Positions 1,905 to 44,127 of a stretch of 44,127 nt of DNA are shown here, in pieces (positions within the stretch are counted from its first letter, which is position 1; the number at the start of each line of letters is the position of its first letter). The stretch is from a virus, in IMG/VR virus record IMGVR_UViG_3300038701_000417, positions 1 through 44,127 of that record, one strand, 5' to 3'. Position numbers and translations under genes: made by a program. Under the pieces are notes generated by a model. It made no database searches. It saw nothing but the letters and a program-made list of their open reading frames with translations, and was not told the DNA's origin.

Positions 1905-2632
1905 TGACAACACCACGTTACGGATTACCAGAGATAGCGGCTTCCCAGTCGCAGAAGCATGTTACCCACAATCAGGCCATCAATGGATTTGATGCGCTGG
2001 TCAATGCGGTTGCGTTGGATAAAGACCTTACCGCACCTCCGGGTTCTCCGAGCGAAGGTGACGGCTACATTGTTGGCTCAAGCGCTACAGGTGCATGGGC
2101 TGGTAAAGACTTGAATTTTGTATCGTATAATAGCGGGGCTTGGTACTTTTATGTGCCGCCTGTCGGGATGCGTGTCTACGTATCAGACGAATCATTATAT
2201 TACCGCTGGTCTGGGTCTGCATGGGTCCAAGAACCTGCTAGTGCGGTAGGAACCGTTTTAAGAGCCGCTGAGACACCAAACGGCGCATTTATGGACGTGT
2301 ATACCGAGGAAGAGCTTTTGAGCGGCCTGAGCGGTGCCTCTGTCGTTTCTACGCTACAGATACCATCACGCGCTATCGTGCTTGGTGTATCTACGCGCAC
2401 AGTCGTAGCAATCACAGGCGCTACTTCGTACGACGCTGGTGACGGTTCAACAGTAGATCGGTTTGGCGGCTCACTGAGCATATCTGCTGGTGGAACCAAC
2501 GTCGGTGTGATCGGGCCAACAGCTATTTATTCTCCGATGAACATTACCCTGACGGCCAACGGCAGTAATTTCACTGGTGGTGATGTTCGTATTGCTACAC
2601 ACTACCTCCTGCCGGGTGCGCCAACCGCCTAA
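1904..2632 (+). CDS. DUF2793 tail/fibre-associated protein
   Basis: The 242-residue product starts with a region typical of DUF2793: a GLPEIAASQSQKHVTHNQA stretch near residues 7-25, then Asp-Ala-Leu-Val, PPGSPSEGDGYIV, and two Gly-Ala-Trp motifs. The family is found mostly in alphaproteobacterial phages and prophage remnants next to the tail hub gene, as here, and is thought to be a tail fibre or receptor-contact component; no reaction is known. The second half is Thr/Ser/Gly-rich and looks like beta structure. It is the last gene of the late operon: its stop is two bases from the stop of the converging polymerase gene. Confidence 0.8.
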   Translation: MTTPRYGLPEIAASQSQKHVTHNQAINGFDALVNAVALDKDLTAPPGSPSEGDGYIVGSSATGAWAGKDLNFVSYNSGAWYFYVPPVGMRVYVSDESLYYRWSGSAWVQEPASAVGTVLRAAETPNGAFMDVYTEEELLSGLSGASVVSTLQIPSRAIVLGVSTRTVVAITGATSYDAGDGSTVDRFGGSLSISAGGTNVGVIGPTAIYSPMNITLTANGSNFTGGDVRIATHYLLPGAPTA

Positions 2633-2634
2633 TA

Positions 2635-4659
2635 CTATTCTACGTCGCCCCAGTTTGGTCCGCGCTCAGAATCGACCAAGATCGGTACACTCACATCTAA
2701 CGATTCTGCAAGCAATCGACGCATCTCAGCGAAGCCTTCGCGCATCTGTGGGCTATCGTCAGGAACGCTGAAGTCGAGTTCATCGTGTACTTGTAGTTTA
2801 GGCACACCAATAACATCGAACACACCAGCCTTATAGCACGCGTGCATTCCTTTCTTGATAGCGTCTGCTGCACTGCCCTGTAATTTTCGGTTGATGGCCT
2901 TGTGCGTGTGCGCTCGTTGTATTTTGTACCCCCAACGTCCAATAGCGTCTTCGTAACGAACTGGCATCGCTCTGTTCTGGTAATCTACGTCGGCAGGTTC
3001 CCATTTCTCGAACCAACTTCTACGATTTAATATAGTCTCAATATACCCGTTGTTCTGCGCGAACCCGGCCACCGAGTCCATCGTATCTTTTACGTACGGA
3101 TTTGCGTTGTGGTATGCGTCGAAAAGCGCGTCGATGTCTTTCTGCGATAGATTACCTTTGAAGTATTCCATTATTGATCGACCCAGTTTTGCTTTTCCCA
3201 TACCGTACAACAAGCCGAAGTTAATGTTTTTTACAGGCTTGCGGAACTTCTTACGCGTAGCGTCGTCATCCTCAGCCCAGCCCATAAACGGGCATAGTCG
3301 ATAGTATGTATTGTCGTGGTAATCGGTGCGTGGATTTGCGTTGTATTCAGCGCGTAGTTCGTCTGAGCCGGGGCCAGTCGCGAAGTGCGCTAACATTCGA
3401 TATTCGATCTGCGAGTAATCGTCTTGTTCCCAGCAGAGATGGCCGTCGTCAGGTACAAACAGCGTACGTATACGCTTGCCTAACTCTGTTCTGACAGGGA
3501 TATTCTGTAAATTCGGGTGGGATGATGCAAAACGTCCTGATCGAGTACCCCCTGCGTCTCCGCGTAGCGGATGAAACTGACCATGCACCCGCCCATAAAT
3601 ACTCTTCTCTAACAGATAAGATTTGATGAACGTTTCTCGTATCTTGATATGCTCGCGTATGTCGCGAATCATCTCGGCGACAGGGTGTTCAACACTCTGT
3701 AGGAACTCTTTGCGAAAGCTGGGGTTTCCTGCCTTTGTTCTGTTATACCCTATACCAACCGCGTCAAATACTTTAGCGAGATCATGGCTGGAATTAACGT
3801 TAGCCCATACGCCTGTCAGGTCTTTCAGTTGTTGGTTCTTTGTGTCGATTATCGGTCCGAGATCGTGATAGAGTTTTTCTGCTTTAGGCATGTCAATACG
3901 TACGCCTGTATAGCGCATATCAACCATTAACGGTATCATATCGCATTCCATTCGGTACACATCATATAGCCCCATCTGGTGCAGCGCAGGAAATTGCTTC
4001 TCTAATACACGCAGCGGTAAATCAGCGTCACTCTCGCCGTACATGCCCACAGTGAGCGGCGATGCTCGATAGATATTTGCTCGTTGCTTGCCGTTTGCAT
4101 CACCGCCGTAAGCGTCCGCAAGCCATTGGTACATCTCGTCGCTTTCCTTGCCCATGCCGCAGTATTTTTGTCCGAGATATTCTAACCCAACTTTGCCATC
4201 TTCTTTCAGTAGCGCCTCGGCAAACTGTACGTCGTGCAACTCGCCCTGAAGCCTTATGTTTGCTGTCATTAACCAACCCATATCGTAAATAAGGTTGGCA
4301 CCTACTTTTGGTATGTGCGGTGTTTCCATTACCGTCTTCAACCATGCGAGGCATGTGTTGGGGTCTAGGTTATATTCGGGCTGAAACTCGTGGCGTAATG
4401 GGAAGTACCAAGCGCCTCTATTGCCGTGCGCGTCAATTGCACCAACAGAAAATCCTACCATGTGGCCTTTTCCACGACCCCAGCCGGGGCCGTGATCGAA
4501 GTCAGGCTCTTTTGTCTCGGTATCTATTGACAGCGATACTGCTGACGACAGATTTGGGAACGAGGTCGGTGGTCGCCATCCGTTATCGGGCGGCGGTGGC
4601 GGTACGCGCAAAGCCGTATTTTTGCGTAGTTTGGAGAAATCTTCTTCATCAAATAACAT
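2635..4659 (-). CDS. polA-like: Family A DNA polymerase with 3'-5' exonuclease domain
   Basis: This 674-residue protein has a proofreading exonuclease domain followed by a polymerase domain, and no 5' nuclease, the usual phage layout. Exo motif I is Asp46-Thr-Glu48, and an exo III-like GESDAD lies near residue 195. Polymerase motif A (DDYSQIEYR) is near residue 412, motif B (RKPVKNINFGLLYG) near 477, and motif C (VHDE) near 626, so all catalytic carboxylates appear present. The motif B residue equivalent to Phe762 of E. coli Pol I is Phe. It replicates the phage genome. It is the last gene of the minus-strand replication operon, directly after the clamp-like gene, and its stop is only two bases from the stop of the late operon. 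Confidence 0.95.
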   Translation of the reverse strand: MLFDEEDFSKLRKNTALRVPPPPPDNGWRPPTSFPNLSSAVSLSIDTETKEPDFDHGPGWGRGKGHMVGFSVGAIDAHGNRGAWYFPLRHEFQPEYNLDPNTCLAWLKTVMETPHIPKVGANLIYDMGWLMTANIRLQGELHDVQFAEALLKEDGKVGLEYLGQKYCGMGKESDEMYQWLADAYGGDANGKQRANIYRASPLTVGMYGESDADLPLRVLEKQFPALHQMGLYDVYRMECDMIPLMVDMRYTGVRIDMPKAEKLYHDLGPIIDTKNQQLKDLTGVWANVNSSHDLAKVFDAVGIGYNRTKAGNPSFRKEFLQSVEHPVAEMIRDIREHIKIRETFIKSYLLEKSIYGRVHGQFHPLRGDAGGTRSGRFASSHPNLQNIPVRTELGKRIRTLFVPDDGHLCWEQDDYSQIEYRMLAHFATGPGSDELRAEYNANPRTDYHDNTYYRLCPFMGWAEDDDATRKKFRKPVKNINFGLLYGMGKAKLGRSIMEYFKGNLSQKDIDALFDAYHNANPYVKDTMDSVAGFAQNNGYIETILNRRSWFEKWEPADVDYQNRAMPVRYEDAIGRWGYKIQRAHTHKAINRKLQGSAADAIKKGMHACYKAGVFDVIGVPKLQVHDELDFSVPDDSPQMREGFAEMRRLLAESLDVSVPILVDSERGPNWGDVE

Positions 4660-29972: not shown

Positions 29973-30713
29973 ATGAAACTCAAAGCAAAAATAAATAAAG
30001 ATGATTACGAAAAGCTGTCAGAAGAGCTAAAGAAGCTGTACTGGGCCAATGGTGATGAATACCAACTTCAAGTCGAAGGTATGAAAACCGAAGACGATAT
30101 TGCAGCGCTGAAGCGTGCAAAAGATCGTGAAGCGCAGGAAAAGCGCGATGCGGTTAAAGAACTAAACGAGCTAAAAGCGGCGCAGGATAAAGACAAAGAC
30201 GACAATGCGCGTAAAGCTGGCGACATTGATACGCTAACTCGTTCGTATGAAGAGAAGTTGGCCAATCAAAAGACTGAGTACGACACCAAACTGGGAACGA
30301 AAGATCAGTTCATTCGTGATACGCTCGTGGACAGCAAAGCTAATGAACTTGCGTCTAAGCTCTTTACTGTTCCTTCGGCCATGTTGTCGTATGTTAAGTC
30401 GCGTCTATCCGTAGATTTTGAGGGTGAAACCCCCACACTGCGTATTATGGACGCAGCAGGAAAAGTGTCCGCAGCTAGCGTTGACGACCTGCAAAAAGAA
30501 ATACTTGCTAACAAGGAATTTTCGTCTATACTTGTAGGAAGTAAGGCTTCAGGCAGCGGTGCTGGTACTGGGTCGGACGGGCAAAAAGGACAAAGCAGTG
30601 CTAATTTCCTCAATGCCGAGGGGCAACCGAAGTCGATGCGTGAAATGAACGCAAAGGAAAAGGTCGCATATTTGAAATCTAAACGTGAGGAAAACGAAAA
30701 TGGCACTGAGTGA
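29973..30713 (+). CDS. Scaffolding protein
   Basis: From ATG 29973 (AAGGAT seven bases upstream) the product has 246 residues. It is highly charged and helical, with a long coiled coil (about 35-110) rich in Lys, Glu, Asp and Ala, then a more ordered region and a C-terminal basic/acidic tail with Ser/Gly spacer. This form and its place before the major capsid gene are typical of phage scaffolds, which guide capsid assembly and leave the head. It overlaps the capsid gene by 14 bases. Confidence 0.85.
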   Translation: MKLKAKINKDDYEKLSEELKKLYWANGDEYQLQVEGMKTEDDIAALKRAKDREAQEKRDAVKELNELKAAQDKDKDDNARKAGDIDTLTRSYEEKLANQKTEYDTKLGTKDQFIRDTLVDSKANELASKLFTVPSAMLSYVKSRLSVDFEGETPTLRIMDAAGKVSAASVDDLQKEILANKEFSSILVGSKASGSGAGTGSDGQKGQSSANFLNAEGQPKSMREMNAKEKVAYLKSKREENENGTE

Positions 30714-31674
30714 TTTTGCAGTATTCTCGGAATGGGCCTATGAGACTATGACCGAGACGGTTGCCCAAGAGGTTGATAAATTCAACGCGGCCTCTGGTGG
30801 AACCATTACCCTTGTAACAGCTCCTATTACTGGTGATTACAGTGATACGGCTTTCTACAAGAAAATTAACGGATTAGTTCGTCGTCGTAACCCGTATGGT
30901 ACGGGCGCTATTACGAACAAGGTACTCGAACACTTGACCGATACTATGGTCAAAGTTGCTGCGGGTGCTGGTCCTGTTGACATTAAACCATCTATGTTCC
31001 GCTGGATTCAAAAGAACCCAGAAGAAGCAGGTGTTGTTCTTGGCGAACAGCTTGCTGGTGACATGCTGGCTGACATGCTCAACACGGCTGTTCTTGGTGG
31101 CTATGCTGCTATGGTGCAGAATACAGACATCCTGTATGATGCAACTGGTGACACGCCTGATACACTGACTTACAGCGCAATGAATAAAGCTGAAGCTAAG
31201 ATGGGTGATCGCTCTCAGGATATTGCGGCATGGGTAACACACTCCCTACCGTTCCATAACCTGATCGGCGGTAATCTGGCTAACGCGGAACGCTTGTTCA
31301 CGTACGAGACAGTTTCGGTACTGGCTGACTATAAAGGTCGTCCATTTATCATCACCGACTCACCGTCGTTGATTGATACTACGCCGAACCCTGACACGTA
31401 TCACTTGCTGGGTCTTGTACCAAACGCGTTGTCTGTCGAGCAGAATGCCGATTACGACTCTAATGTTGAAAACTCCAACGGAGACGAAAACATTGAGCGT
31501 ACATGGCAAGCTGAATGGTCTTACAACTTGGGCGTAAAAGGCTACGCTTGGGATAAGACCAACGGCGGCAAAGCGCCAACGGACGCAGCAATCGCAACGT
31601 CTACTAACTGGGATAAATACGCATCGTCCGATAAAGACGGTCCGGGCGTTATCCTTAAAGTTGACGCAAGCTAA
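30700..31674 (+). CDS. Major capsid protein
   Basis: The 324-residue protein begins MALSDFAVFSEWAYETMTE. GTGAGGA lies at proper distance from ATG 30700. It shows the usual mix of an N-terminal helix, a Gly/Thr-rich stretch (FNAASGGTITLV), MLADMLNTAVLGGYAAM, VTHSLPFHNLIG, and a C-terminal strand region (RTWQAEWSYNLGVKGYAWD), common to one group of siphophage capsid proteins of the HK97 fold class. Position after scaffold and before a strong hairpin supports the call. It forms the head shell. Confidence 0.87.
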   Translation: MALSDFAVFSEWAYETMTETVAQEVDKFNAASGGTITLVTAPITGDYSDTAFYKKINGLVRRRNPYGTGAITNKVLEHLTDTMVKVAAGAGPVDIKPSMFRWIQKNPEEAGVVLGEQLAGDMLADMLNTAVLGGYAAMVQNTDILYDATGDTPDTLTYSAMNKAEAKMGDRSQDIAAWVTHSLPFHNLIGGNLANAERLFTYETVSVLADYKGRPFIITDSPSLIDTTPNPDTYHLLGLVPNALSVEQNADYDSNVENSNGDENIERTWQAEWSYNLGVKGYAWDKTNGGKAPTDAAIATSTNWDKYASSDKDGPGVILKVDAS

Positions 31675-31710: not shown

Positions 31711-31734
31711 AACCGAACTTTGAAGGATACCACC

Positions 31735-32130
31735 ATGAAAAAGAAGTCCGACCAAATTCTCTATTTCACCAAAGGCGCAGTACCCACAGAAGCGGAGTAT
31801 GCTGCTGCCGAGCAACTAACGGGCAAGGTCGTTTTCCGAAACGCTGCGTTCGTAAGTCCTGACCTCTCTATTGAGCGTTGTGACGGCGTTGCTGGCTCAG
31901 TACCCGAAGTTTACGCAAAAAAGTATAAACGCGTGGATGCTGAAGCACAGGTTGAGGAAAGCACAGAAGAAAGCACCGAAGCTGACGACGCACAGGTAGA
32001 AACTCCCGAAGCTCCGCAGACGGAAGAAACACCTGCTGCACCCGAAGCTCCTGTAGCGACACCTGAAGTGCCAACACAGCCCGTTGCAGATGCTACCGTG
32101 AATGGGGGCGATGGTTGGCCTCAACAATAG
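31735..32130 (+). CDS. Capsid-proximal protein with shared N-terminal domain and acidic tail (possible decoration protein)
   Basis: The 131-residue product has an N-terminal domain (about 1-67) with LYFTKGAVPTEAEY, GKVVFRNAAF, and VAGSVPEVYAKKY, and then a tail of Glu, Pro, Ala, Thr and Val. The same N-terminal domain recurs in the next gene (GATPTAGEL, TVHVRSAL, VAGSPPADYLAAY). The leader AAGGATACCACCATG is almost the same as that of the scaffold gene. A head decoration or anchoring role is inferred from position and the repeat of the domain. Not recognised as a named family. Confidence 0.68.
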   Translation: MKKKSDQILYFTKGAVPTEAEYAAAEQLTGKVVFRNAAFVSPDLSIERCDGVAGSVPEVYAKKYKRVDAEAQVEESTEESTEADDAQVETPEAPQTEETPAAPEAPVATPEVPTQPVADATVNGGDGWPQQ

Positions 32131-32142
32131 GAGAGCCAAGTC

Positions 32143-33603
32143 ATGCGCTTATCAGACACTACTACTCTGTTCTTTATAGCAGGGGCTACCCCAACAGCGG
32201 GTGAACTGGCCCTTATCGAAGGTATCGAAGGTACCGTACACGTCCGTAGCGCATTGAAGGATGCAGACTACTCAAACGGTACGTTATTGGAGGCCGCAGA
32301 TTATGTCGCTGGCTCACCGCCAGCCGATTATCTGGCCGCATACCCATTTGTCAAGGCGATCTATCCTACTGTGGGTACGATAAACGCGGTTGGCGACAGT
32401 CGGTCTAACGGTACAATTACTGTAACGGCTGACGATTATTATGCTGAAGCTAATTACCCGCTTACATGGGCTATTACACACGCAGGGGGCCGCGCTCGTA
32501 TTGTGTCGGCTGACGACTTGGGTGTTGGCGGTGACGATACCGCAGATGTGCTTGCGCGGATTGCTACCATTGTTGCTGACCCTGCCGAATCGTTCTTCCT
32601 GCTTGCAGGTGCGAATGATCGCGGAAGTTCTGATCTAACCTACGCTCAGTCTGTATCCAACATGGAAGCTATTTTGGACGCAATGGGCGCTGCTGGTAAG
32701 CGTGTATTCTTAGCAAACGAGTTACCATACGAAGCGCTGACAGGTACGCAGTTGGCTAACCATCTCGCTTTTCATCGCTGGTTGGGCGACCCTAATGGTG
32801 CGTTGTACCAGCGCCCGTATGTTTTCCCTGTAGACACATGGGGAGCAGTCGCAGACGATACGAATGAAAACGAGTTCCGCACAGGTGATGATGTCGATGG
32901 TTTACACCTAGCTGTCATCGGTGCCGAACGTATTGGCCGTGTACTTGGCGCTGCATTACGTGCCGCGCTCAACAGCGTATCACCGTTCATCTTAGACGCT
33001 GCGGGTACTGACAGCTTTGACGCTACGACCAATCCGGGCGGTAATTTAACCCCTAATCCTACGATGTCTGGTACAGGTGGGTCGGGCGGTACAGGCTCTT
33101 CTGGTGACTTTGCCGACGACTTTTCGGTATCGTTGACAAGTACGGCTGCAAACCTGACTGTTGTAGGCTCCAAAGAGACGGACTCTGCGGGTAAAGAATG
33201 GCAGGTGCTTACTATCGGTGGTACGCCTGACAGTGATTCTGGCCGTGTTGAGTTCCGTAACGAACTTGATCTCAGCGAGTTCTCCGAAGGTGATCGCTAT
33301 GAAGTGGCCGCTTTGGTTCAATGGGAAGATTTAGTGAATATGGGAGGATTGTGGGTAGAAACGTATATCGACGACGGCCCTACAACTTATCGCTCACGCT
33401 CGAATGACCCGTACAATTATACGCGGCCATTCCCAACAAATAGTAAGGGAACAGTTATGCTGATCTCTCCGCAAAGTTTTGTGGTGCCAGCAGGAACTAT
33501 GGATAATATCCGCGCTGTCGTGAACATCATGTCAGGACAAGGTGCAGTAGCATCGAGTGGTGTTATCAAGATCGCGGATATAACAGCACGCAAGGTAAGT
33601 TAA
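32143..33603 (+). CDS. SGNH/GDSL hydrolase-like virion protein with capsid-proximal N-terminal domain
   Basis: The 486-residue protein has three parts. Residues 1-72 repeat the domain of the preceding gene. Residues about 78-275 carry SGNH hydrolase blocks: VGDSRS with Ser86, AGANDR (Gly156-Asn158-Asp159) and DGLHL with Asp252 and His255, the full Ser-Asp-His set plus the oxyanion Asn. After a Gly/Ser/Thr linker (about 300-322) comes a beta-rich domain to the end, likely a carbohydrate-binding or structural module. A sugar-ester (for example acetyl) hydrolase on the head surface is the inference. The hydrolase call is good; the location on the head rests on gene order and on the shared domain. 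Confidence 0.78.
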   Translation: MRLSDTTTLFFIAGATPTAGELALIEGIEGTVHVRSALKDADYSNGTLLEAADYVAGSPPADYLAAYPFVKAIYPTVGTINAVGDSRSNGTITVTADDYYAEANYPLTWAITHAGGRARIVSADDLGVGGDDTADVLARIATIVADPAESFFLLAGANDRGSSDLTYAQSVSNMEAILDAMGAAGKRVFLANELPYEALTGTQLANHLAFHRWLGDPNGALYQRPYVFPVDTWGAVADDTNENEFRTGDDVDGLHLAVIGAERIGRVLGAALRAALNSVSPFILDAAGTDSFDATTNPGGNLTPNPTMSGTGGSGGTGSSGDFADDFSVSLTSTAANLTVVGSKETDSAGKEWQVLTIGGTPDSDSGRVEFRNELDLSEFSEGDRYEVAALVQWEDLVNMGGLWVETYIDDGPTTYRSRSNDPYNYTRPFPTNSKGTVMLISPQSFVVPAGTMDNIRAVVNIMSGQGAVASSGVIKIADITARKVS

Positions 33604-33604
33604 G

Positions 33605-34105
33605 ATGGCTCTAACGGTTGAAGATGGAACGGGTGTTAGCGGGGCTGATAGTTATATCAGTCTTGCTGACGCACGCACGTACGCAACATCGCGTGGTTTG
33701 ACTATATCTTCAGACGACACCACAGCCGAACAACAATTGCGCCAAGGTTTTGACTATATTGAAGCCCGACGTGGTGATTTTCAGGGAACCAAAACACTCA
33801 GCACACAGCCGAACCAATGGCCGCGTGACGGGGTATACGTGGATGGCGTTGAGTTGGCCACAAATTTAATTCCCACAGAGTTGCAGTACGCACAGGTGCA
33901 GATCGCATCCGCTGTCGAGGGTGGTTCCGACTTGAACCCGGTAGGGGGTTCGTCGTTTGTCACTGAAGAGGTGGTTGGACCAATCGAGACGAAGTATTCT
34001 GAAAAAGTCAACACGACGGGTATACCGATCATACGTGCGGCGGAAAAGCTGATCGCTCCGTTCCTCGTGTCTGGCGGCTATGCAGTCGCTACGATGCGAG
34101 CGTGA
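33605..34105 (+). CDS. Head-tail connector (DnaT-like / adaptor)
   Basis: The 166-residue product begins MALTVEDGTGVSGADSYISL, then DARTYATSRGL, AEQQLRQGFDYIEAR, and NQWPRDGVYVDG, the recurring pattern of phage adaptor proteins that are often annotated as DnaT-like. They bind the portal ring from below. It lies directly after the SGNH gene and before the head-closure gene, as expected for the connector block. Confidence 0.82.
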   Translation: MALTVEDGTGVSGADSYISLADARTYATSRGLTISSDDTTAEQQLRQGFDYIEARRGDFQGTKTLSTQPNQWPRDGVYVDGVELATNLIPTELQYAQVQIASAVEGGSDLNPVGGSSFVTEEVVGPIETKYSEKVNTTGIPIIRAAEKLIAPFLVSGGYAVATMRA

Positions 34106-42015: not shown

Positions 42016-44127
42016 ATGGCACAGTTTGCAATAGCAGCCGCAGTCGGAGCCGTAGTAGCAGTAGGTGCTTACCTGCTTGCGCCACGGCCACGTACACCTG
42101 CGTCTTCTAATAGCGGACCGCGCCTTAAAGAGTCGCGCCTCACTGCGTCTACTGAAGGCGACCCAATACAAAAACTCTTCGGACGAATGCGAGTCGAAGG
42201 CGAGGTGATATGGGCAACCCAGTTCAAAGAGACAGTAAATACGGAAACAACCACCACACAAACAGGCGGTAAAGGCGGTGGCGGCGGTGGTTCGCAAACG
42301 ACGACGACTACAACATACTCATATTCAATATCACTGGCCGTAGCCTTCTGCGAAGGCAACGAGAAAGCCACGCTATCAAGAGTGTGGGCAGACGGCAAAG
42401 AACTGGATGCGTCACTATTGACCTTGCGTTTCTATAATGGTTCCGAAACACAAACGGCTGACCCGTTGATAGAGACAACTGAAGGTGCTGGTAATACGCC
42501 TTCCTACAGGGGTGTTTGCTACGCTGTGTTTGAAGATTTACAGCTTGAAGCATTCGGTAATCGTGTACCACAAATAACGGCAGAGATTGTTGTGCCGCAC
42601 GTTACCGACGACCCAGCCGATATACAAAACTCAGGTAAAGCATTTACGCTCATTCCGGCGACAGGCGAGACAGTTTATGGCACGCAGCAGTACAATCAGG
42701 ACTATGAAACCGGGGATTCACAATACGATCTTCAGCGGGTAACAACGCCAGACAACGTACACAACGCATTTCGCCAGCCCGACGTAGTAGTTTCGCTCGA
42801 CAATCTCTATCGAATGCAGGGCAGTAATCTTGACGCAGTTGAGATCGTTTACTCGTGGTTTGGCGACGATCTGCGTGCAGGTAATTGTCGTGTAATACCG
42901 AAGCAGGAAGACACACAACGATCAATCGCACCTACGGCTTGGAGTGTTGGTTCTTACAACAGATCGAACGCTGAAGAGGTGAGCAAGGACGCAGAAGGTC
43001 GGCCTATATTTGGTGGAACTCCAGGCGACGCACAGGTTATTGAACTCATACAAAAGCTAAAAGCCGACGGCAAGCGTGTGGTGTTCTATCCGTTTATTTT
43101 GATGGATATACCATCCGGCAATACGCTACCAAATCCCTACAGTGACAATGCGGCTACGGCAGGTCAGGACGTATTCCCTTGGCGGGGGCGTATTACATGT
43201 AGCCCGGCTCCCGGCTACGCAGGTGCGGTAGACAAGACGGCGGCTGTTACGACACAAATAAACAATTTCTTCAACGGTGCGGAAGGTTACAACGCTTTTG
43301 TAACGCACTGTGCGAATATATGTGCCTCAGCCGGAGGGGTAGATGCCTTTATTGTGGGTACTGAATTACGAGAATTAACGTTCTCTCGTAGTAGCGCAGG
43401 TGTGTATCCATTCGTCAGCCATCTTGTTACGTTGGCTGGTACTGTTGCAGGAATACTACCATCGGCAAAAATAAGTTATGCGGCAGATTGGTCCGAGTTT
43501 GTTCACGATGTTAGTGACGGCTTGTGGTTCCATCTCGACCCTTTCTGGTCTAATGCAAATGTAGATTTTGTTGGTATCGACAACTACTTGCCGATGTCTG
43601 ATTGGCGCGATGGTGGTGGACATTTAGACTACGATGCAGTCAACGGACCTGTTACGGAATTTGACGTTGATTACCTGAAGAGCCAGATCGAAGGTGGTGA
43701 ATATTACGATTATTTTTACGCATCTCAGGCTGATCGAGAATCACAAACACGCACACCAATAACCGACGGTACCTATGGTAAGCCTTGGGTCTATCGTCGT
43801 AAAGATTATCGCAATTGGATGGCCAATCAGCATTATAATCGTCCGGGCGGCGTGGAAGATGCCAGCCCCACCGCGTGGGTTCCTAACAGCAAGCCGATAT
43901 GGTTTACTGAATTTGGATGTCCGGCTGTGAACAAGGGTACGAATCAACCAAACGTGTTCTACGACCCTAAGTCTAGCGAGAGTTTCTTCCCTTATTTCAG
44001 CACAGGATTGCGCGATGATTTCATTCAACGCGTGTACGTCGAGACGTTCTTAGAATACTGGGGCGATAACCCTATAATGAACGGCGGTACCCCGCTCACC
44101 AGTACCGACAACATGTTTATATGGCCC
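42016..44127 (+). CDS. Tail tip hub protein (GTA TIM-barrel type), N-terminal part
   Basis: This gene runs off the window and continues at 3-1904; full length is about 1294 residues. The N-terminus has a hydrophobic helix (FAIAAAVGAVVAVGAYLL), then the hub region DPIQKLFGRMRVEGEVIWAT, in parts, with a Gly-rich loop. From about residue 280 a TIM-barrel glycoside-hydrolase-like domain follows; Glu450 in VGTELREL and Glu632 in WFTEFGCPA stand where retaining glycosidases have acid/base and nucleophile. In RcGTA this protein is the tip 'megatron' that contacts the host. Cleavage of host glycans is plausible but inferred. Confidence 0.9.
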   Translation, partial: MAQFAIAAAVGAVVAVGAYLLAPRPRTPASSNSGPRLKESRLTASTEGDPIQKLFGRMRVEGEVIWATQFKETVNTETTTTQTGGKGGGGGGSQTTTTTTYSYSISLAVAFCEGNEKATLSRVWADGKELDASLLTLRFYNGSETQTADPLIETTEGAGNTPSYRGVCYAVFEDLQLEAFGNRVPQITAEIVVPHVTDDPADIQNSGKAFTLIPATGETVYGTQQYNQDYETGDSQYDLQRVTTPDNVHNAFRQPDVVVSLDNLYRMQGSNLDAVEIVYSWFGDDLRAGNCRVIPKQEDTQRSIAPTAWSVGSYNRSNAEEVSKDAEGRPIFGGTPGDAQVIELIQKLKADGKRVVFYPFILMDIPSGNTLPNPYSDNAATAGQDVFPWRGRITCSPAPGYAGAVDKTAAVTTQINNFFNGAEGYNAFVTHCANICASAGGVDAFIVGTELRELTFSRSSAGVYPFVSHLVTLAGTVAGILPSAKISYAADWSEFVHDVSDGLWFHLDPFWSNANVDFVGIDNYLPMSDWRDGGGHLDYDAVNGPVTEFDVDYLKSQIEGGEYYDYFYASQADRESQTRTPITDGTYGKPWVYRRKDYRNWMANQHYNRPGGVEDASPTAWVPNSKPIWFTEFGCPAVNKGTNQPNVFYDPKSSESFFPYFSTGLRDDFIQRVYVETFLEYWGDNPIMNGGTPLTSTDNMFIWP
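44000..44124. repeat. Terminal direct repeat, right copy
   Basis: Identical to 4-128; see the left copy. After 44124 the last three bases (CCC) disagree with 129-131 (ACA), which would change one codon if taken literally. The junction should be closed by removing one repeat copy. Confidence 0.9.

Follow-up and report, generated by a model that had tools for sequence, protein, structure and literature searches.

In the virus record IMGVR_UViG_3300038701_000417, a gene placed near the major capsid gene joins a small domain, a putative attachment part, to an enzyme predicted to act on sugar esters. The window (the entire record, 44,127 nt) has 125 identical bases common to its two ends (1-128 and 44000-44127), and the ORF for a GTA_TIM tail protein continues over the joined ends, so the record very likely holds an entire genome of ~44.0 kb in circularly permuted form. 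Its structural module reads in the order terminase, portal, head morphogenesis, scaffold-like, capsid, A, B, head-tail adaptor, head closure, tail terminator, and tail tube, where the names head morphogenesis and scaffold-like are assigned by synteny. GTA-type domains are present among the tail proteins. All features described here lie on the plus strand. The major capsid gene (30700..31674) encodes a Gp13-like protein (PF20036, 5.5e-121) and is the upstream neighbour of gene A, in agreement with the sequence-only reading that both genes follow it. The nearest solved relative of this protein is that of Acinetobacter phage SH-Ab 15497 (PDB 8xb6/9k4g; phmmer 1e-96), and the capsid protein of the window shares 54-61% identity with capsid proteins of phages that infect Pseudomonas (phage 73), Paracoccus, Sphingomonas, Rhodobacter, Brenneria, and Xanthomonas. 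The downstream neighbour that closes the slot is the head-tail adaptor gene Ad1 (33605..34105; phrog_477, 2.4e-48). Defence-system profiles gave no match, and a search of bacterial genomes with the capsid profile yielded one locus only.

Gene A (31735..32130) encodes a type A protein of 131 amino acids, which profile matches and an AlphaFold2 model divide into a docking-type domain and a disordered acidic tail. Its start is the ATG at 31735, within an ORF that opens at a TTG at 31720. Gene B (32143..33603) encodes a type B protein of 486 amino acids that, according to profile matches, alignments, and a model, comprises an N-terminal domain, an SGNH hydrolase, and a C-terminal sandwich. The N-termini of the two proteins are 38% identical across 72 residues (E=1e-7). 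Both match phrog_9062 (A, 3e-21; B, 1.5e-4) and phrog_10405 (A, 1.6e-4; B, 2.5e-3), the latter of which is labelled 'virion structural protein'; a search for an experimental basis of this label found none. The proposal that A and B share an N-terminal domain of ~65-70 residues was confirmed with an HMM for which 98 copies of the domain were taken from phages other than the window. Among the 325 ORFs of the window this profile recognizes solely A (4.7e-26) and B (9.8e-17, residues 1-68, 32143..32346), with the next ORF at 0.87 and the best of 400 shuffled controls at 0.09.

The genomic setting of this domain was surveyed in contigs chosen by their capsid protein rather than by the domain. Counting the window, 71 distinct capsid sequences were followed downstream by 1.6 kb or more and make up the set. 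One or two domain genes directly follow the major capsid gene in 69 of the 71 contigs (two genes in 35, one in 34), and two contigs have none. All domain matches in the surveyed loci fall within the 1.8 kb downstream of the capsid gene; the loci reach 4-5 kb to either side and would miss copies located farther away. These results support a genuine domain family tied to the post-capsid slot, and A and B, by domain and by slot, belong to the phrog_9062/phrog_10405 post-capsid family.

Structurally, the N-terminal domain of A (residues 1-66, 31735..31932) is modelled with a pLDDT of ~90-96 as a beta-alpha-beta-beta-alpha fold. A fold search with this model returned no match among solved structures in the PDB, including known decoration proteins, and a PDB sequence search with the domain gave a single chance match of 21 residues. 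An alignment of the domain proved too weakly conserved to serve as a query. Significant matches in a viral structure library are confined to the domain's own family, and include proteins of Xanthomonas phage Suba ('virion structural protein') and RcTitan (uncharacterized). A suspected kinship with B. subtilis YqbF received no support from the fold search. The remainder of A (31933..32127) is a low-complexity tail predicted to be disordered (pLDDT ~55-70), and its composition of 15 D/E, 9 P, 10 A, and 0 K/R in 61 residues bears out its earlier description as an acidic Pro/Ala tail. It ends in GWPQQ (32113-32127), a variant of the C-terminal W-x-P-N motif of the family. For gene B, the N-terminal domain has low pLDDT because the alignment used for the model had no domain rows; a combined alignment (A9), which placed the GDS block of SGNH proteins under the N-terminal domain, was left out. 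The evidence for a structural match between type A and type B domains comes from other proteins of this family.

The enzyme portion of B is well defined. The SGNH domain (residues 77-280, 32371..32982) matches Pfam GDSL_2 at 4.9e-7 with 30.9 bits, slightly under the cut-off of 32.9, and residues 74-485 match the phrog_6102 'lipase' family at 1.6e-49. Ser86 of block I (GDS, 32398..32400), Asn158 of block III (AND, 32614..32616), and Asp252 and His255 of block V (DGLH, 32896..32907) are all located where the sequence-only reading had placed them. These four residues are invariant in two alignments of SGNH sequences (A10 with 14 sequences, A4 with eight), and A10 also has invariant GDS84-86 and GVGG127-130, the latter carrying the block II glycine. 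The model of residues 77-280 is mostly confident and has an alpha/beta SGNH fold, with Foldseek probabilities of 1.00 to GDSL lipases, CE3 enzymes, and sialate O-acetylesterases. The hydrolase is intact, and by motif and fold B belongs to the SGNH/GDSL hydrolase superfamily. The C-terminal module (~residues 300-486, 33040..33600), correctly anticipated to be beta-rich, is a sandwich with a pLDDT mostly of 80-95 and lower values at residues 421-450, which resembles carbohydrate-binding modules (CBM16, CBM61, and the CBM of 2c26). No signal-peptide-like stretch was seen in B by crude hydropathy, and whole gene B has no close relatives in IMG/VR.

Members of the domain family fall into two types. 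Type A proteins consist of the N-terminal domain and a low-complexity disordered tail, and most of them end in a tryptophan motif, the commonest forms being WKPN, WTPN, WNPN, and WQPN. A tryptophan is found within the last 15 residues of 67 of 114 distinct complete domain proteins, compared with 213 of 1885 control ORFs; the division into types A and B partly used that tryptophan and is therefore not independent evidence. In most type A proteins (e.g. L017, L018, L047, L142) the conserved W-x-P-N-like peptide lies behind a disordered linker and resembles a tethered docking peptide. Type B proteins carry the N-terminal domain and a folded outer module that varies among members: short beta or Ig-like modules (~50 residues in Septimatrevirus, to which phage 73 with its type B ORF012 belongs), Big_2, beta repeats (in tandem in L014, judged by eye), a 200-residue module of unknown kind in Axy19, a CE4 deacetylase, or the SGNH hydrolase. 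The order of the two genes is reversed, with type B first, in L035, L059, and L074.

Enzyme modules are rare in this family, occurring in two of the 71 surveyed contigs and additionally in the cultured phage Lebethron, whose host is Pseudomonas taiwanensis. The second surveyed case, L035, has a gene directly after the capsid gene in which a stretch of unknown fold separates the N-terminal domain from a CE4 polysaccharide deacetylase (PF01522, 3.7e-10); a short type A gene comes next. The nearest NCBIfam models of this deacetylase are IcaB and HfsH, whose cut-offs lie well above its scores. Its metal site was judged by eye and the second histidine motif has non-canonical spacing; the protein has no match among PDB sequences. 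The Lebethron protein, of 536 amino acids, joins a type B domain (phrog_10405, 9e-9) to a beta region and a GDSL domain (2.7e-12). Outside the N-terminal domain it gives no significant alignment with gene B, and a protein of Pseudomonas phage phiK7A1 matches it at 51% identity over residues 114-535 but not over the domain. It had no match when used as an IMG/VR query. The three fusions look independent because the enzyme or the order of domains differs among them; enzymes that modify polysaccharides were apparently joined to the domain on no fewer than three separate occasions.

The SGNH cassette of the window is itself found in other settings. Relatives are present in ~30 other IMG/VR contigs with varied N-termini, and none of these carries the N-terminal domain of A and B. 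The N-terminus thus differs from one setting to another, as expected of a docking part. Mass spectrometry of PhiPsa374 virions detected a homologue of the cassette, gp053, through 42 unique peptides (PMC9796965). In Caulobacter phage Kuura, a related SGNH gene is the first one behind the capsid gene (L001, 4905-6299) and so represents a further, separate instance of a post-capsid esterase; the protein lacks the A/B domain and found no match as an IMG/VR query, and the Kuura capsid gene is not recognized by the capsid profile of the window family. An Aeromonas 'phosphoesterase' match (E=4) was antisense to an annotated gene and was rejected as chance.

Taken with the post-capsid slot, the interchangeable outer modules and the repeated enzyme fusions make the N-terminal domain look like a virion tether, and its most likely role is to attach exchangeable modules to the particle. 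For gene B, we give a probability of about 0.5 to the reading that its product is a virion-borne, head-mounted carbohydrate O-acyl esterase with the N-terminal domain docked in a head-proximal position. In this mechanism, the first ~68 residues would dock at a head-proximal site, for which the outside of the capsid is the likeliest candidate, and the SGNH domain and the carbohydrate-binding-like sandwich would be exposed. The enzyme would then remove O-acyl, probably O-acetyl, groups from exopolysaccharide, capsule, or O-antigen as the phage nears a cell. A broader proposal, which we hold more tentatively, is that this previously undescribed domain is a phage-head platform that has acquired enzymes on at least three separate occasions: an SGNH esterase, a different GDSL hydrolase, and a CE4 deacetylase. 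Of the sequence-only reading, which had the shared domain dock the enzyme on the capsid, the part strengthened here is the adaptor-like behaviour of the domain with its exchangeable and repeatedly enzymatic modules; docking on the capsid shell is plausible and putative.

Published virion analyses bear on type A proteins, and not directly on type B. The proteome of phiAxp-1 virions comprises 18 proteins, with an emPAI of 757 for the capsid protein; the product of the single type A gene of this phage (AKJ71370, orf45) was not detected, whereas the neighbour-encoded AKJ71371 was, with an emPAI of 0.18 (PMC4764938). This result counts against capsid docking because a stoichiometric decoration should be seen, though small proteins can be missed. 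In SH-Ab 15497, a 90-residue protein encoded after the capsid protein appears by eye to be a divergent type A member. It has no PHROG match and is absent among PDB chains, although the capsid protein has been solved. Virions of phage Loki, whose type A protein is expected at ~12 kDa, gave 11 bands of 12 to 108 kDa that were not identified by sequencing (PMC5313236). Such escape of type A from both mass spectrometry and icosahedral maps would be explained if the domain docked in low copy number at the neck or head-tail connector, in which case B would be an appendage of the neck or collar. Lactococcal phages have neck appendages that bind carbohydrate, and it is the head-tail adaptor gene that bounds the slot downstream. 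However, no neck partner was found for the domain, and the Ig-like and Big_2 modules of type B proteins resemble known decorations of capsids, among them Moo19 gp28, which is Hoc-like (PMC11654681), so that we regard a neck location as possible but unlikely. The phiAxp-1 result would also fit assembly factors that are absent from the mature virion, in which case the enzyme of B would not be particle-borne, and the W-x-P-N peptide behind a disordered linker does resemble a bridging or chaperone device. This explanation is improbable given that type B proteins are separate from A and bear surface-type modules, that phrog_10405 is labelled a virion structural protein, and that a chaperone confined to the cytoplasm would hardly be expected to acquire glycan enzymes again and again.

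The Lebethron fusion speaks against head mounting, since its gene lies outside the capsid slot and adjoins endolysin and holin genes; a type A gene (L212, 4301-4750, by eye) is kept after the capsid gene of this phage. Its position would suit an enzyme that is released free at lysis, a route that requires no secretion signal, and that helps progeny to escape or spread through acylated polysaccharide, with the N-terminal domain being incidental. Retention of the same domain in three enzyme fusions and the presence of the homologous cassette in PhiPsa374 virions (PMC9796965) make this very improbable. We give just as little credence to B being a tail-attached esterase whose place after the capsid gene is mere gene order. 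Most described cassette relatives are indeed annotated as tail fibres or lie near tail genes, and esterase tailspikes are the known kind of such enzymes (PMC11654681, PMC9569702), but the N-terminus of B is the post-capsid domain rather than a tail-docking one, and its gene lies between those for capsid and adaptor.

Comparison with described systems helps to place the head-mounted reading of B. The phrog_10405/phrog_9062 proteins of the Septimatrevirus gp012/gp011 type share the N-terminal domain, gene order, and post-capsid slot of the window and have no described function beyond the 'virion structural protein' label. Their type B protein has the short beta module only, whereas 421 residues including the enzyme are found in the window. 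Otagovirus SGNH proteins (PhiPsa374 gp053, VCM, psageK4; phrog_6102) are homologous to B in the SGNH domain and sandwich and have the same catalytic residues, but they are without the A/B domain and are often annotated as tail fibres, and the psageK4 gene, unlike B, is near tRNA and terminase genes. Esterase or deacetylase tailspikes and fibres that act on surface polysaccharides as virion proteins are known from Shigella phages Moo19 (gp82) and B2 (gp48/49) and from Pectobacterium phage Possum (PMC11654681, PMC9569702). The Moo19 and B2 spikes match the B model in Foldseek; these enzymes are tail-attached, in Moo19 and B2 as homotrimeric spikes, and none is fused to this post-capsid domain. 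Capsid decorations such as T4 Hoc, T5 pb10, and Moo19 gp28 combine a small anchor with exposed Ig-like modules, as the type B proteins of many relatives would. None has a structural match to the N-terminal domain, whose capsid binding is putative, and enzyme modules such as that of B are atypical for them.

Glycan-active enzymes of phages are usually sought on tailspikes and fibres. If the head-mounted reading holds, some phage heads, and not tails alone, would carry enzymes against the glycans of host surfaces or biofilms, and head decorations would have a role beyond stability or passive binding. The domain, to which many relatives have Ig-like modules attached and a few have enzymes, would then serve as a simple sequence handle for finding head-mounted enzymes. 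Lebethron, as a cultured phage, would allow a direct test.

Several annotations at these loci merit comment. Type A proteins in Septimatrevirus-type records (PV641625, OK094665, OR714918) are annotated as 'DNA polymerase III' (subunits gamma and tau), in all probability wrongly, the Pro/Ala-rich tail having misled the assignment. In Pseudomonas phage AUS531phi (L010, 2986-3468), the domain is fused to a HeH/LEM-like helical region and the PHROG of the gene is named Arc-like repressor, a doubtful name for a post-capsid gene. In Lebethron (L212, 2531-4480), the deposited annotation starts type A too late and has a minus-strand ORF over the true plus-strand scaffold-like and capsid genes (2540-3262 and 3266-4237). 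In phiK7A1 (L214, 28472-32925), an annotated SGNH gene (_059) is followed after ~1.7 kb of small hypothetical genes by the gene (_064) for the relative of the Lebethron GDSL fusion, in a region just before terminase.
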